Assembly (NCBI GenBank): GCA_013140575.1
Contig: JABFSN010000143.1
Span: forward strand, 1-34,488
Origin: Phycisphaerales bacterium
GTDB taxonomy: Bacteria > Planctomycetota > Phycisphaerae > UBA1845
Direction: 5' to 3'
Length of the DNA: 34,488 nt
This document shows, piece by piece, positions 22,583 to 34,030 of the stretch. Each line of letters opens with the position of its first letter. Position 1 is the stretch's first letter. Made by a program: the position numbers and the translations under genes. A model generated the notes under the pieces. The model saw only the letters and a program-made list of their open reading frames with translations. It made no database searches and was not told the DNA's origin.

Positions 22583-22826
22583 GATCTCCGCTCCGTTCGA
22601 CGGACGTGACGTGCGCGGCCCGAGGCCGCCCATTCAGCCCGGACACACCTTGACACCCTATGCTAGTCCGGCCCCGCCGGCGGGTCAACGATTCGCGTCC
22701 CACGGTGCTCGCCCGCCTCAAACGCAAGTTATGCGACCGCATTAGTTTGCGCGCGATCGACGATGACGCAGGCAGTTACCCCGGGCGGTTTTGCGGCGAT
22801 GCGAACATGGTCCTAGAATCGCAGTC

Positions 22827-23486
22827 ATGATCGTGACCATCGACGGACCCGCCGGCAGCGGCAAGTCCACCGTCGCCCGGCAATTGGCCGTCCGCATGGA
22901 CATCGCGTATCTCGACACCGGCGCGATGTATCGGACCGTCGGACTCGCCGCGATTCAGGAGCGGGTTCCCCTCGACGACGGCCACGCGATTTGCGCCCTG
23001 ATCGGGCGCATGGAAATGGACATCGGCTGCACCCCGTCGGAGACACGCATCCGCCTGCACGGAAAAGACGTCAGCCGCGAAATCCGCACCATGTCCGCGG
23101 GCGGCGCCGCGGGTGCCGTCGCCGTCTTGGCCCCCGTTCGCCTGCTCCTGATCGAACGCCAGCGGGCCATCGCGGCCCGGCTGGGTTCCCTCGTCGCCGA
23201 TGGCCGCGATCAGGGCAGCGTCGTTTTCCCCGACGCCGACGCCAAGTTCCTGATTACCGCGTCGCCCGAATGCCGCGCCCGCCGCCGCTTCGCCGAGCTC
23301 AAGTCCGACGGGCAACTCGTGACGATGGATCAGGTCCTCGCCGACGTACGCCGCCGCGACGCCACCGACCAAATCCAGTGGCAAACACTGCTGCAACCGG
23401 GATCGGCCGTTCAAATCGACACGACCGACCTGTCGCTGGAGCAGGTGGTCGACCGCCTTCTGACCGAAGTTCGCCGGCGAATTTGA
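22827..23486 (+). CDS. cmk: (d)CMP kinase
   Basis: Cmk phosphorylates CMP and dCMP with ATP in pyrimidine nucleotide metabolism. The ATG at 22827 gives 219 residues starting directly with the P-loop MIVTIDGPAGSGKST. Other family marks are YLDTGAMYRTVGLAA, the VSREIRTMSAGGAAGAVAVLAPVR region, the DGRDQGSVVFPDADAKFLITAS segment, and RRRDATDQIQWQTL near the lid. Where enterobacterial enzymes have RDxxDxxR, the last Arg appears to be Gln here, though the alignment was done by eye. The upstream gap to the zinc-ribbon gene (22583-22826) shows no other feature I can support. Confidence 0.93.
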   Translation: MIVTIDGPAGSGKSTVARQLAVRMDIAYLDTGAMYRTVGLAAIQERVPLDDGHAICALIGRMEMDIGCTPSETRIRLHGKDVSREIRTMSAGGAAGAVAVLAPVRLLLIERQRAIAARLGSLVADGRDQGSVVFPDADAKFLITASPECRARRRFAELKSDGQLVTMDQVLADVRRRDATDQIQWQTLLQPGSAVQIDTTDLSLEQVVDRLLTEVRRRI

Positions 23487-23514
23487 CTCGATCGCCCGCA
23501 ACCCCGTTGCGTCG

Positions 23515-23835
23515 GGGTCCGTGACACTTTAGGCGACGATTGCTTCAGCCCCGGCAGGGGCGCCCGTCGCTAGCCCACGGCGGAAGCCGTGGGAATGAAT
23601 GACCGTGCTCCCGTCCCAAGCCCCGGCAGGGGCGGCCGGGTGCAAGCCCGAACGCCCCTGCCGGGGCTACGGATCGATGTGGTTCTCCGTATTCCCATGG
23701 CTTCCGCCGTGGGCTGACCACGAAAGCCCCTACCGGGGCTTCGGATCGATCTCGCTTTCGCCGTACCCACGCCGTGGGCTGGGCCGCGTCTCCCCGCCGG
23801 GGCTGTAGGACACCCGCCGCATGTGTCACGGACCC
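23515..23835. mobile_element. MITE-like element with perfect 13-bp terminal inverted repeats and 9-bp flanking direct repeat
   Basis: GGGTCCGTGACAC at 23515-23527 and its exact reverse complement GTGTCACGGACCC at 23823-23835 bound 321 bp. GTTGCGTCG occurs immediately outside both ends in direct orientation (23506-23514 and 23836-23844), as expected for a target-site duplication. No coding region for a transposase is inside. The interior carries several GCCCCGGCAGGGGC and CCCACGGC/GCCGTGGG palindromes like those near the IS200-type transposase at 31627-32079. It sits between cmk and the rny region. The structure reads as a non-autonomous insertion. Confidence 0.6.
23546..23811. repeat. REP-like palindrome cluster inside the MITE-like element
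   Basis: One complete forward unit begins at 23546 and the next AGCCCC palindrome begins exactly 72 bp later, at 23618. Opposite-orientation copies follow: GCCCCTGCCGGGGC near 23654, a CCCATGGC/GCCGTGGG hairpin near 23694 and GCCCCTACCGGGGC near 23726, then degenerate copies to about 23811. This is the same family as 31243-31628 and 32106-32407. Confidence 0.8.
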
Positions 23836-23842
23836 GTTGCGT

Positions 23843-23861
23843 CGTAGGGGCGAGCCCTACG
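23843..23861. repeat. Palindrome CGTAGGG/CCCTACG beside the MITE-like element
   Basis: CGTAGGG (23843-23849), a 5-nt loop, and CCCTACG (23855-23861). It overlaps the end of the right copy of the 9-bp direct repeat and immediately precedes the TTGACA box at 23863. Confidence 0.6.
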
Positions 23862-24218: not shown

Positions 24219-24449
24219 GATGCGGCGAGGTCTACCATACGCCGTTGACGCGCGGTCCCACTGCGGGCCCTCGATTACTGTGCCCTGATTCGTTGGCCGG
24301 GTTCTGATCAAGTTCATTCCTGACGACTGCGGTCGCATTCTGCCGGATTCCGTCACTGTGAACAGCATTGTCTGTCCGCGCGCCGATTCCCACCGGGATC
24401 GCCGCGCCACGCACCGGGAATGCCGCATTTGGAATCAGGTTCAACCATC

Positions 24450-25994
24450 ATGCTGGCGGTCATCCTTGGCATCGGGCTGGGTGGACTATTCATCCAGATC
24501 GGCTCGATGCTGGTGGGGAAATCGCGCATCGCAGCCGGGCAGCGCGAGGCCGAACGGTTAATCACCAACGCCAAAACCGAATCGGACCAAATCGTCCGCG
24601 CCGCCCAGCTCGACGGGCGGGCGGAGCGCGAACGGCTGATGGAGGAATTCAAAAAGGAGTCCGCCCAGGTTCGCTCCGAACTGAAGGACGTGGAAAAGCG
24701 GCTGACCAAGCGCGAGGACAATCTCGACAGCAAGCTGGACACGCTGACCACCAAGGAACGGCATCTCGAAAAGGCCGAGGGCGATCTTGAGGCGCGCGTG
24801 GTCAAGGTTGGAGCGGCCGAACAAAAAGCGGCGGAACTGGTGGAACGGCGTGGAGCGGAACTGGTTCGTGTATCCGGCATGACGCCGGAGGAAGGCAAGC
24901 GGGAACTGCTGTCCGCGTTGGAGTCCCAGTTGGTCCACGAATCCGGACAACTGGTCGCCAGAATCCTGGGCGAGGCCCGCGAGAACGCCGTGGCCAAGGC
25001 CCGCGAAATTACGCTGACGGCCATTCAACGCTACGCGGCCGACAACACCTGCGAAGCCACCGTCTCCACGGTCGACATCCCCTCCGACGATCTGAAAGGT
25101 CGGGTGATCGGCCGCGAGGGACGCAACATCCGCGCATTTGAAAAAGCGACCGGCGTCGACGTCATCGTCGATGACACGCCCGGGGTCATCGTGGTCAGTT
25201 CGTTCGACCCGGTCCGCCGGGCGGTCGCCTACCAAACACTGGTCAAGCTGATTCAGGATGGACGGATTCACCCCGGGCGAATCGAGGAAGTGGCCGAACA
25301 GACCCGAAAGGAAGTCGAACACGAGGTCGTCGAACGCGGAAAGCGCGCCGCATTGGAAGCCAACGTCGCGGGTCTGGACCGCAAACTGGTCGATCTGCTG
25401 GGCCGGTTGCACTATCGCACCAGTTACGGTCAGAACGTACTGCAGCACAGCATGGAAGTGGCCTACCTGTGCCAGGTCATGGCCGACGAGCTGGGTCTGG
25501 ACGGCCGGCTGGCGCGGCGCTGCGGACTGTTGCACGATATCGGCAAGGCCGTCGATCACGAAATCGAGGGCGGGCACCCGCAGATAGGTGCGGATATCTG
25601 CCGTCGTCTAAAGGAGCGGGAAGAGGTCATCAACGCAGTTGCAGGGCATCACGGCGACGTGGAATCGACGTCGCCGTACACGCCGTTGGTCATGGCCGCC
25701 GACGCCATCAGCGCCGCCCGACCGGGCGGCCGGCGCGATTCGCTGGAACGCTACATCCAGCGATTGGAACAGTTGGAGGGCATTGCCACGGCACACGACG
25801 GGGTCAAGCAGGCCTACGCGATTCAGGCCGGTCGCGAGTTGCGGGTCATCGTCGACGCCAATCGGCTGGACGACAATTCGGCCGCCATGCTGGCCCGTGA
25901 CATCGCCCACCAGGTCGAATCCGAAATGACCTATCCGGGCGAAGTCAAGGTCACAGTCCTCCGCGAAATGCGGGCCGTCGAAATCGCGAAGTAG
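24450..25994 (+). CDS. rny: Ribonuclease Y
   Basis: RNase Y is a membrane-anchored endoribonuclease that starts mRNA decay. The 514-residue form from ATG 24450 begins with its transmembrane anchor ([18 protein letters not shown]). An ATG at 24420 would add ten residues, but its GGGA is too close to serve as a good ribosome-binding site. A long charged coiled coil (about 25-190) is followed by a KH domain with [19 protein letters not shown], then an HD domain with HSMEVAYL and [12 protein letters not shown] carrying the metal-binding His-Asp pair, and a conserved C-terminus with [15 protein letters not shown] YmdB-like gene follows downstream, as in many bacteria, here split from rny by a repeat element. 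Confidence 0.96.
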
Positions 25995-30632: not shown

Positions 30633-31100
30633 ATGAGGGGAGCATTCAAGAAGACCACATTACCGATCGCCGTGGTCCTGATCCTGGCCGCGGCGTGGCT
30701 GACCAGCGCCGGGCCGCTGACGCCGCCGGCGGGGGCGGTGAGTTCCACGATGCACACGCTGGATGAAATCTACAATGCGGTGAATCAAGTCAATCAATGT
30801 GGGTGTTCCTGGGATTCGCAGGTGATTTCGACGGGCGGATCGCCAGTTGTTGCAGTTCCAGGGGGGACAGCGGGAGTGCTGCACGCCGTCGTCTTGCGTA
30901 CTACCGGAAACAGCCTCATTTACTATTTTCAGAACTCGACCGGTACCGCTGAGTTGCTCGAACTACAGGGAACGGACTTCAATAACGGCGGAGACGGGAG
31001 CAAAGTCTTGGTCGTAGACATGCGTTTTGGTGATGGACTCCGAATCAGTTCGGGCGGTGGTACCCCCGCTCCGTTTACGATTCTCTACAAGTTGGACTAG
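30633..31100 (+). CDS. Small secreted protein sharing the Pro-Pro-Gly N-terminal motif
   Basis: A 155-residue predicted exported protein. The ATG at 30633 has AAGGGAG at 30617-30623. After the signal peptide (MRGAFKKTTLPIAVVLILAA, cleavage near LTSAG) the mature sequence starts GPLTPPAGAVSSTMHTLDEIYNAV, which resembles the mature starts of the two upstream beta-helix proteins (GDLNPPPG). The remainder is a compact domain of short strands (ILYKLD end, VVLRTTGNSLIYYF, KVLVVDMRFGDGLRI) that I do not recognise, without beta-helix repeats. Probably cotranscribed with beta-helix gene 2. The shared N-terminus suggests a common sorting route, by inference. Confidence 0.6.
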   Translation: MRGAFKKTTLPIAVVLILAAAWLTSAGPLTPPAGAVSSTMHTLDEIYNAVNQVNQCGCSWDSQVISTGGSPVVAVPGGTAGVLHAVVLRTTGNSLIYYFQNSTGTAELLELQGTDFNNGGDGSKVLVVDMRFGDGLRISSGGGTPAPFTILYKLD

Positions 31101-31242
31101 ACGACTTTGTCGCATGGGAGCCGGGGCACTCGAAATGTCGATCTGTGATGATGATGGGCAAGTCGCGATGCGTGTTTCGCCAGTTGAAGTCTCGCGCACT
31201 GGAGCCACCGATATCCGGTTCCGATGGGTCGGTCGCCTGGGG
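31101..31242. other. Gap between small secreted gene and REP array
   Basis: About 140 bp with no clear promoter, RNA or gene. It is open in more than one frame into the palindromic array, but no ribosome-binding site supports translation. Confidence 0.4.
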
Positions 31243-31628
31243 AAGCCCCGGCAGGGGCGATCGTCGCTAGCCCACGGCGGAAGCCGTGGGACCGAACGGC
31301 CGGCTTCGTTTCCCAAGCCCCGGCAGGGGCGCCCGTCGCTAGCCCACGGCGGAAGCCGTGGGACCAAATGGCCATCTTCATTTCCCAAGCCCCAGCAGGA
31401 GCGCCCGTCGCTAGCCCACGGCGGAAGCCGTGGGACGCCGATTCGCAATGACGCCCCCAAGCCCCGGCAGGGGCGCCCGTCGCTAGCCCACGGCGGGAGC
31501 CGTGGGACCGAATGGCCATCTTCATTTCCCAAGCCCCGGCAGGGGCGGCCGTCGCTAGCCCACGGCGGAAGCCGTGGGACGTCAATTCGCAATGACGCCC
31601 CCAAGCCCCGGCAGGGGCGGCCGGGCTT
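31243..31628 (+). repeat. REP-like array with exact 72-bp period
   Basis: Units begin at 31243, 31315, 31387, 31459, 31531 and 31603, exactly 72 bp apart; the last is partial. Each unit has 49 conserved bp and 23 bp of variable sequence. The conserved part contains GCCCC-GGCA-GGGGC (small hairpin), a 12-bp link ending GCTAG, and CCCACGGC with loop GGAA and GCCGTGGG. The 23-bp parts fall into two types: ATGGCCATCTTCATTT-like after units 1, 2 and 4, and AATTCGCAATGACGCCC-like after units 3 and 5. The array abuts the 3' end of the IS200-type transposase gene. Confidence 0.9.
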
Positions 31629-32079
31629 AATCGAGCACGAACCGCTCATCGTAGGCAATGCCATGCCGTTGAAGAAACGTGACGTATTCCTCATCAAACG
31701 TCCGAATTCGATGATGCTCTTTCTGGTTCAAAATGTAGCGGGTAACGTCTTCGACTGCGGAGAGGCTCACGGTGAACGCTCCGTAGCCGATCTGCCAGCC
31801 GAAGTCACGCATTTCGGGAAAGGTCTCGTGAATCCATTTCGAGGACACGGCCTTGACGACGCGCATCGTTTCGGCGATCGGCGTGGAGGCGTTCAGCTCG
31901 ACGAGCAAATGCACGTGGTCTTCCGTTCCGCCGGCGGAGAGCAGATGGGCGTCATGATTGCGGAGGATGCCGCCGAGGTAGTCAAACAAGCGGGCCCGGA
32001 TATCATCAGGCAGCAGGCGTCGCCGATTTTTGGTGCTGAAAACGCAATGGTAGACCAACTTCGAATGGGTGTGTGCCAT
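31627..32079 (-). mobile_element. tnpA: IS200/IS605-type Y1 transposase gene (tnpA), possibly REP-associated
   Basis: A 150-residue single-domain Y1 transposase (HUH endonuclease) that would cleave and join single-stranded DNA at hairpins. The ATG at 32079 gives MAHTHSKLVYHCVFSTKNRR, a typical start. The HUH pair is His55-Val-His57 in GTEDHVHLLVEL, and the likely catalytic tyrosine is Tyr115 in VTRYILNQKEHH. Length and C-terminus (RRHG-like, then YDERFVLD) fit an intact IS200-type TnpA. Its stop codon lies in the last partial repeat of the array at 31243-31628, and the other side is flanked by opposite-orientation palindromes at 32106-32407. This resembles REP-associated transposase (RAYT) loci. 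No tnpB was found. Confidence 0.88.
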
Positions 32080-32105
32080 GACGCGGCATTCCGCACGGTG
32101 TCGGC

Positions 32106-32407
32106 CGCCCCTGCCGGGGCTTCCGATCGTAGTGACGATCATGGTACCCACGGCTTCCGCCGTGGGCTAGCGACGGACGCCCCTGCCGGGGCTTGGGAAT
32201 TGAACGTGGCCATACGTTCCCACGGCTTCCGCCGTGGGATATCGAATCGTCGTCGCGCCCATAGCCCCGGCAGGGGCGAAAGACCGCGGGACGTTTCGGC
32301 ATCGCGAGACCGAATCTGCCGCTCCTTCCGGGGCTATTCACCGTTGCGTGGACTGTTGACCCACGGCTTCCGCCGTGGGCTAACTACGCGCGCCCCTGTC
32401 GGGGCTT
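32106..32407 (-). repeat. REP-like palindromes in opposite orientation upstream of tnpA
   Basis: GCCCCTGCCGGGGC at about 32107 and 32189, CCCACGGCTTCCGCCGTGGG hairpins near 32147, 32219 and 32360, one reversed AGCCCCGGCAGGGGC near 32263, and a degenerate copy ending near 32407. Most are inverted relative to the array at 31243-31628, so tnpA is enclosed by inverted arrays. Spacing here is irregular, unlike the 72-bp period on the other side. Confidence 0.8.
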
Positions 32408-32419
32408 GTGCGCCGGCGA

Positions 32420-32443
32420 CGCAGCGACGAATGCGTCGCTGCG
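32420..32443. repeat. 10-bp hairpin
   Basis: CGCAGCGACG (32420-32429), loop AATG, CGTCGCTGCG (32434-32443). There is no T-run. It lies between the palindrome cluster and the dockerin-type gene and its role is unknown. Confidence 0.6.
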
Positions 32444-32526
32444 CCATCCGCGGCTTGTCGGCTGGCGATGTGCGTCCCTTCCGGGCCTTTGAACCAGGAT
32501 GGCCGACTGACCACAACCGACCCGTG

Positions 32527-32550
32527 GGCGAATTATGTGCATTGACCGCG
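32527..32550 (+). promoter_or_regulatory. Third GG-N10-GC element, upstream of WGENIGW gene
   Basis: GG (32527-32528), 10 bp, GC (32539-32540), two bases, then TGACCGCG (32543-32550). The spacing to TGACCGCG is identical to the elements at 27438 and 29416, but the -24-type half is weak (GGGCGAA). It is about 100 nt before the GTG start at 32649. Confidence 0.3.
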
Positions 32551-32648
32551 GGAGTGTTTTTCGCGTGGAACGCGTAATCGCTAATCGAACGACGCAACCG
32601 CATTCGTCCGGCGGGGATGCTCCGCAAGACAATGGAAAGGAAATAACC

Positions 32649-33525: not shown

Positions 33526-33639
33526 CTACGAACGTGGTGGCCTTCGGCCTCGAGCGCACGATTGCGGGTACGGTCGCGGTGACGCGATCGCGATTGCCGT
33601 GGTTGCACAGGTGCCCCATCGCGCTCTGTTCACCGTTCC

Positions 33640-34030
33640 CACCCTTCTCACGCTTCACACCCTTCCCCCTCTTCTCTTCTCCCCTCTTCTCTTCTCCTCT
33701 CTTCTCTTCTCTTCTCTTCTCTTCTCCCAATCTGCGTCAATCTGTGCAATCTGCGGTTCTCCTTCCTTTCCCCTCCCCACTCGGTGCCACTCTGTGTCCT
33801 CTGTGGACTCTCCTCCCCCGTTTCGCCTTTCGCCGTTTCGCCTTTCCCTCCCCACTCTGTGCCCCTCTGTGTCCTCTGTGGCTTCTCTTCCCCTCTTTCG
33901 CCTTTCGCCTTTCGCCTTTCGCCGTTTCGCCTTTCCCTCCCCACTCTGTGCCCCTCTGTGCCCCTCTGTGTCCTCTGTGGCTACTTTTCTACTCTTTCGC
34001 CTTTCGACGTTTCGCCTTTCGCCTTTCCCC
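33640..34030. repeat. Pyrimidine-rich low-complexity tandem repeats
   Basis: The plus strand is CTTCT/CCTCTT-rich up to 33730, then carries about three degenerate tandem copies of a roughly 100-bp unit with CACTCTGTG, CCTCTGTGTCC, TCTGTGG and many GCCTTTC boxes. The CTCTGTG/CTGTGG words also form the inverted ends of the element at 26018-26332. Several frames are open across it without sense. Probably slippage-derived noncoding DNA. Confidence 0.85.

Follow-up and report, generated by a model that had tools for sequence, protein, structure and literature searches.

A small HUH transposase set between two groups of palindromes raises the question of what the palindromes are and of whether the enzyme between them is the agent that moves them. 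The locus lies at positions 31243-32407 of the window, by which we mean the whole 34,488-nucleotide stretch analysed here (contig JABFSN010000143.1 of the Phycisphaerales assembly GCA_013140575.1). A sequence-only reading had suggested that it may be a planctomycete REP-RAYT system, that is, a REP-associated tyrosine transposase (RAYT) enclosed by inverted REP hairpins, in which one transposase mobilises or maintains the repeats.

The transposase and its class

The protein described in that reading, a compact IS200-type TnpA with His55, His57 and Tyr115, is borne out (Table 1). Its motifs are D54-H55-V56-H57, W95-Q, Y115-ILNQKEHH (YILNQKEHH at 115-123) and the C-terminal ...YDERFVLD. It matches the Pfam Y1_Tnp family at 3e-27 and scores 72 bits against the NCBIfam IS200/IS605 model (cut-off 55), and its relatives of solved structure, as judged by sequence match, include IS608 TnpA. 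The window genome (G000) holds six tnpA genes, the window copy and five paralogues that are 37-53% identical to it; near-identical recent copies are absent from this genome and there is no tnpB among the ORFs adjoining the window gene. The signature Y---Q--HH is present in the window TnpA and all five paralogues and is retained in nearly all of 115 loci.

Subclass 1.2 of TnpA has been characterized by Y---Q--HH, a specific C-terminal tail and low copy number, with an entry of 'no' for REP structures in the survey table and without IS behaviour (Quentin et al., 2018; PMC6006769). By the sequence features tested, the window protein belongs with this subclass and not with the RAYTs. Membership of the latter family is ruled out by the NCBIfam model for REP-associated transposases (NF047646), against which the protein fails with 22 bits for a cut-off of 80, and by Y---Q--HH in the place of the Y---NP of RAYTs. 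The proposal of a planctomycete REP-RAYT system is right in kind: the locus is REPtron-like, with a low-copy HUH transposase between inverted hairpins, many dispersed dimers and a conserved 5' NTAG foot, but the enzyme is not a RAYT.

The hairpin arrays

The palindromes on either side of tnpA had been described as inverted relative to each other, and indeed they form a 144-nt inverted repeat that is 81% complementary. Rather than a single kind of palindrome, two hairpin types recur in a fixed unit, made up of a short hairpin A (GCCCC-4-GGGGC; GGGGCGNN in the window), a 12-nt spacer ending in CTAG and a long hairpin B (CCCACGGC-4-GCCGTGGG). To the left of tnpA, which is 3' of the gene, there are five 72-nt A+B units (31243-31578) and a lone A hairpin; to the right, 5' of the gene, lies a partly decayed inverted set that includes one A hairpin in the opposite orientation. 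When the A+B strand is folded as single-stranded DNA both hairpins form (z = -3.7). Genome-wide, the exact B pattern has 42 copies against 0 for its reversed control, which places the arrays beyond chance. The stop codon, previously thought to overlap the last repeat, does not do so; it occupies 31627-31629 and only abuts the last A hairpin, the stem of which ends at 31618.

Table 1. Positions in the window of the tnpA locus features and of one dispersed copy. A and B are the short and long hairpins; a prime marks the inverted orientation.
Feature	Position	Strand	Detail or evidence
Left 9-bp target-site duplication GTTGCGTCG of the 23515-23835 element	23506-23514		
Dispersed copy, 321-nt TIR element (GGGTCCGTGACAC ends), between ORFs 22791-23486 (+) and 24420-25994 (+)	23515-23835		A 23548, B 23574, A 23620 / A' 23654, B' 23694, A' 23726
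Right 9-bp target-site duplication GTTGCGTCG of the 23515-23835 element	23836-23844		
A+B unit 1, outermost left	31243-31292	+	A 31245-31258, 12-nt spacer ending CTAG, B 31271-31290; RF01687 31244-31290 minus, E 7e-6; ssDNA fold z -3.7
A+B unit 2	31315-31364	+	A 31317-31330, B 31343-31362; hairpin pattern; RF01687 model
A+B unit 3	31387-31436	+	A 31389-31402, B 31415-31434; hairpin pattern; RF01687 model
A+B unit 4	31459-31508	+	A 31461-31474, B 31487-31506; hairpin pattern; RF01687 model
A+B unit 5	31531-31580	+	A 31533-31546, B 31559-31578; hairpin pattern; RF01687 model
Innermost left A hairpin, 8 nt from tnpA stop codon	31605-31618	+	
tnpA, 150-aa Y1 HUH transposase, subclass-1.2 type	31627-32079	-	Pfam PF01797, 3e-27; NCBIfam IS200, 72 bits; alignment with five paralogues
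Innermost right A' hairpin, 27 nt 5' of tnpA start codon	32107-32120	-	
Right unit, inverted relative to left array	32147-32192	-	B' 32147-32166, A' 32179-32192; RF01687 32147-32193 plus, E 6e-6; inverted repeat
B' hairpin of partly degenerate right unit	32219-32238	-	
A hairpin of opposite orientation inside right array	32264-32277	+	
Degenerate A' hairpin	32321-32334	-	One mismatch
Outermost right unit	32360-32406	-	B' 32360-32379, A' 32392-32405; RF01687 38.1 bits, gathering score 37

Long open frames cross the palindromic arrays (31027-32577 on the plus strand, 30963-31697 and 31097-31585 on the minus strand), with translations such as SHGFRRGLATAAPAGAW, and open frames of this kind are likely sources of spurious annotated proteins. 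Two of the paralogues in the window genome, L006 (G000:C128) and L005 (G000:C80), have more than two hairpin types in tandem. Elsewhere in the window, at 33590-34010, pyrimidine-rich imperfect tandem repeats (TTTCGCCTTTCGCC..., CTCTGTGCCCCTCTGTG...) lie downstream of a dockerin-like ORF.

Conservation of the hairpin unit

With the protein as the sole criterion, eighty loci were collected from Planctomycetota, Verrucomicrobiota, Acidobacteriota, Bacteroidota and others, and relatives within the order were added. A similar inverted flanking unit is present at most of the 80 independently fetched subclass-1.2 loci, in several phyla. At 100 tnpA loci the inverted-repeat score of one flank against the other has a mean of 26.4, compared with 10.4 for mismatched-locus pairs, and 58% exceed the 99th percentile of the control. 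Hairpins with a TAGCC foot are found within 200 nt and in the correct orientation on 124 of the 218 gene sides (57%), in the opposite orientation on 14 of the 218 (6%) and in 3 of 775 far windows (600-1400 nt; 0.4%). The inverted hairpins are a property of the TnpA class, not of the window locus alone.

The foot is asymmetric, as in REPs, with T65/A77/G75% on the 5' side and little information in the 3' flank. The GCTAG on the 5' side of the large hairpin had been put forward as a possible recognition tetranucleotide. A foot of NTAG abutting CC is indeed conserved and may well act in recognition, but it is not the GTAG of REPs, GTAGCC being present on only 29 of the 218 gene sides (13%) as against 124 for TAGCC.

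Hairpins A and B are separated by 12 nt in 76 of 140 cases, and 12 nt is also the median. The B stems vary widely in sequence and yet pair: an alignment of 24 sequences picked from strong cases has 62 double changes, versus 0/500 shuffles, and 100% of the cells of its B helix are paired. Stem sequence similarity follows TnpA similarity (rho 0.21; 0/1000), which shows that gene and hairpins stay together; alone this is no demonstration of recognition, and the correlation may reflect co-inheritance only. In the genome G025 the B stems can differ between the two sides of one gene, which makes strict recognition of the stem unlikely.

Dispersed dimers

The dispersed copies are inverted dimers, A-B-A/A'-B'-A', with a spacing that is nearly constant within a genome, which is the layout of REPINs. 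The starts of B and B' are 120 nt apart in the window genome, 122 nt in G103 and 132 nt in G013.

In one relative, G111, the unit that carries the gene has itself been mobile. Its four tnpA units are 90-94% identical and stand in three unrelated left-hand contexts, two of the four sharing further left flank. The outer A and A' hairpins mark the approximate limits of the homology, the outer A hairpins vary among copies and no target duplication was seen at any of the four units. Placement in unrelated contexts without a target-site duplication (TSD) is as HUH transposition predicts, and this mobility differs from the published lack of IS behaviour in subclass 1.2. Next to two of the four copies (L263-L266) is sequence similar to what lies on the left of another tnpA family of G111 (L268, L270). 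G025 has bare dimers whose surroundings are unrelated right up to the A hairpins, with no visible TSD.

Many copies in the window genome have the form of a different kind of element. The TIR GGGTCCGTGACAC is carried by 14 of its 23 dispersed clusters, on both sides in nine cases and on one side in five. When TSDs are counted by anchoring on TIR matches, 9-bp duplications, exact or with one mismatch, are present at six of the nine complete TIR elements. In G103 a different TIR (GGTTCTTCACGG) is found on 21 of 25 clusters, with 8-bp TSDs at 10 of 20, and G025 has a third kind of shared outer flank. Hairpin dimers lie inside TIR elements at 23506-23844 of the window, at L015, L016, L020, L024 and L026, and at the G103 loci L145, L154, L157 and L163. 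The combination of TIR and TSD is a DDE-type signature, and the spread of the many copies in G000 and G103 that have it needs no TnpA. The suggestion that one transposase mobilises the palindromes is therefore too simple: on these sequence signatures, part of the dispersal, and in the window genome the larger part, is attributable to a DDE-type enzyme.

The same counts could be taken further, to an explanation in which the hairpins are chiefly internal parts of DDE-type MITEs and are moved by a DDE transposase alone, with tnpA a bystander that inserted between the hairpins or inherited them. The TSD frequencies in G000 and G103 agree with this, as does the fact that every exact TIR match examined in these two genomes lies on a hairpin-containing element. 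Nevertheless, the TIRs differ by genome (GGGTSCGTGACAC, GGTTCTTCACGG and, in G025, outer flanks of a third kind) around a constant hairpin core; bare dimers without TIR or TSD exist; the tnpA loci have no matching inverted pair of TIRs around them; and the core flanks tnpA in several phyla. We regard this explanation as unlikely. Searches for a DDE transposase matching these TIR types, and for a TIR element without the hairpin core that would represent an empty site, found neither, the TIRs occurring only with the core.

Identity with the Rfam family RF01687

All seven well-formed units of the window match RF01687 (Acido-Lenti-1), a two-hairpin family of 46 nt, over its full length, with E values of 1e-6 to 2e-4; the gathering score of 37 is passed by the outermost right unit, the other six falling below it at 29.7-35.9 bits. 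Around the 80 fetched loci, 81 matches lie within 200 nt of tnpA (32 kb), 75 of them in the expected inverted orientation and 6 otherwise, and at more than 500 nt there are just 4 in 214 kb. RF01687 is found in 74 of 114 genomes of the order and is associated with subclass-1.2 TnpA (61/9/13/31; odds ratio 16, Fisher p 7e-10). The 14 control genomes have 0 matches, and in seven of eight further genomes, reached via the fetched loci, 10-111 units are found as against few TnpA genes.

The pairs in the B stems of 91 distinct units are Watson-Crick in 710 of 720 cases and G-T in 5. Conserved RNA helices normally tolerate G-U, and the near absence of G-T therefore fits selection on DNA rather than RNA. 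This bears on the family's standing annotation. A role in the control of protease genes has been raised as a possibility for it (PMC13298647). Rfam gives its type as Gene; sRNA, and the motif table of Weinberg (2010) lists it as 'probably RNA' and not cis-regulatory. With this type and score, RF01687 could be a real trans-acting small RNA, its place beside tnpA reflecting regulation of that gene, for example by an antisense or terminator RNA, and the hairpins near the tnpA start codon and beside its stop make some control of tnpA expression plausible. The scarcity of G-U pairs (5/720), the inverted units at both gene ends and the presence of the unit in tandem arrays, dimers and MITEs, with high copy only in some genomes, all speak against a small RNA, which we consider distinctly improbable. 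Our results suggest instead that Acido-Lenti-1 is the mobile DNA hairpin of a little-studied transposase class found in many bacterial phyla. In the open-access papers searched, RF01687 occurs in the 2010 motif table, as an annotation of little-known function and in lists, and we found no link to a transposase there, although an earlier report elsewhere is possible.

The association of TnpA with the hairpins is not absolute. Two genomes, G040 and G062, each hold about 40 RF01687 units among the matches listed, of which at most 48 were counted per genome, with no subclass-1.2 TnpA detectable, profile search included. In G059 and G013 no exact B hairpin lies beside the tnpA genes, though B is dispersed in both genomes, and G117 has a TnpA and no RF01687 match. 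Several of the exception genomes are incomplete, and orphan REPs are known in other systems. The sequence-only reading had held that palindromes abundant in the absence of tnpA would refute it, and here the outcome is mixed, with G040 and G062 as such cases and G082 not. The last genome lacks TnpA and has 42 copies of the stem CCCACGGCN4GCCGTGGG, but all 42 are without the AG foot and were rejected as an orphan population of the B hairpin; they are apparently an unrelated palindromic repeat with the same stem sequence.

A conventional IS200/IS605 insertion sequence whose ends are exceptionally elaborate would have the Y1_Tnp domain, the Y---Q motif and the TSD-less mobility seen in G111, but the low identity of the window-genome paralogues (just 37-53% to the window copy), the lack of an adjacent tnpB, the presence of at least two double hairpins per end and solo dimers many times commoner than the gene make this the least probable account.

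Proposed model

We consider it probable that this is a REPtron-like locus in which a subclass-1.2 TnpA acts on its own two-hairpin DNA unit, RF01687, with dimers also captured in TIR elements. A low-copy Y1 HUH TnpA would recognise its own A-B unit (hairpin A, 12-nt spacer ending in NTAG, hairpin B) in single-stranded form, the lagging-strand template being the probable site. By analogy, the NTAG at the foot of B would be the counterpart of the GTAG of REPs or of the guide tetranucleotide of IS200/IS605, and the cuts made by TnpA would fall close to the outermost A hairpins. Experiments on RAYTs have established what GTAG does and that cleavage takes place at CT (PMC8266576). What then moves, without target duplication, would be the complete A..tnpA..A' unit or a REPIN-like A-B-A/A'-B'-A' dimer that lacks tnpA. 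In the window genome, dimers have also been captured in TIR elements and spread by a DDE transposase. The hairpins near both gene ends may, in addition, insulate or regulate tnpA.

A broader reading, which we advance tentatively and hold to be possible rather than probable, is that this is a widespread mobile system with two engines. RF01687 dimers would be processed as single-stranded DNA by subclass-1.2 TnpA and would repeatedly and independently have been packaged in unrelated DDE-type TIR elements, an Rfam 'sRNA' family being in reality mobile DNA. If true, two different transposases act on a single repeat.

Four points appear to be new: that the hairpins go with subclass 1.2, that they do so across a wide range of bacteria, that they are Acido-Lenti-1, and that TIR elements have packaged them repeatedly. 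They matter in several respects. Firstly, a context is provided for two orphans, TnpA subclass 1.2, which was described without hairpins or IS behaviour, and Acido-Lenti-1 itself. Secondly, the REP-transposase systems would gain a second branch of the Y1 enzymes, one that is IS200-like, in phyla where REPs are poorly described. Thirdly, the A-B unit offers a simple and testable single-stranded DNA substrate. Finally, it is a caution that further 'structured RNA' orphans poor in G-U pairs could be hairpins of DNA.

Comparison with known systems

With IS200/IS605 elements (subclass 1.1) the locus shares the Y1_Tnp domain with HuH and Y---Q. The recent near-identical copies of those elements, often with tnpB, were not found in the window genome, although G111 does have its four units of 90-94% identity. 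TnpA class 3 resembles the present system in its occurrence in Planctomycetes and Acidobacteria, its atypical high-copy hairpins and its position intermediate between IS and REPtron (Quentin et al., 2018). That class, however, has Y----Q, a length of about 178 aa and a CnGA foot, whereas the window has Y---Q--HH and NTAG, and the assignment is ruled out. The TIRYT enzymes and their TIRtrons (Di Nocera et al., 2013; PMC3733652) likewise have a Y1 transposase with inverted repeats on either side, which in some cases are self-complementary and occur more than once. Most belong to subclass 2.1 and have HTH tails and the motif GGGGWSAS; that motif was not found in the repeats flanking the window gene, where the A hairpins are GGGGCGNN, and a TIRYT is also ruled out.

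Many dispersed copies in the window genome and G103 have the form of DDE-type MITEs, with TIRs and 8- or 9-bp TSDs, but the interior is an HUH hairpin dimer and the type of TIR varies by genome. The likeness to REPINs, two inverted palindromes at a short constant spacing in many copies, is one of form only, as many of the copies sit in TIR elements. REP/RAYT systems (TnpAREP class 2, REPtrons, REPINs) have in common with the locus a low-copy HUH gene between inverted hairpins, a 5' TAG-type foot and dispersed inverted dimers at fixed spacing. They differ in the Y---NP of the protein; here the unit is a double hairpin, A+B with a 12-nt spacer, and the foot is NTAG as against GTAG.

The closest agreement is with subclass 1.2, in Y---Q--HH, a length of about 148 aa, the WQ motif, the conserved C-terminal tail, low copy number and divergent paralogues (PMC6006769). 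The survey recorded 'no' REP structures and drew the subclass mostly from Cyanobacteria and Bacteroidetes, whereas here flanking double hairpins are found in Planctomycetota, Verrucomicrobiota, Acidobacteriota and others. We read the inverted double hairpins at most subclass-1.2 loci as a correction to the published description of a class with no REP structures.
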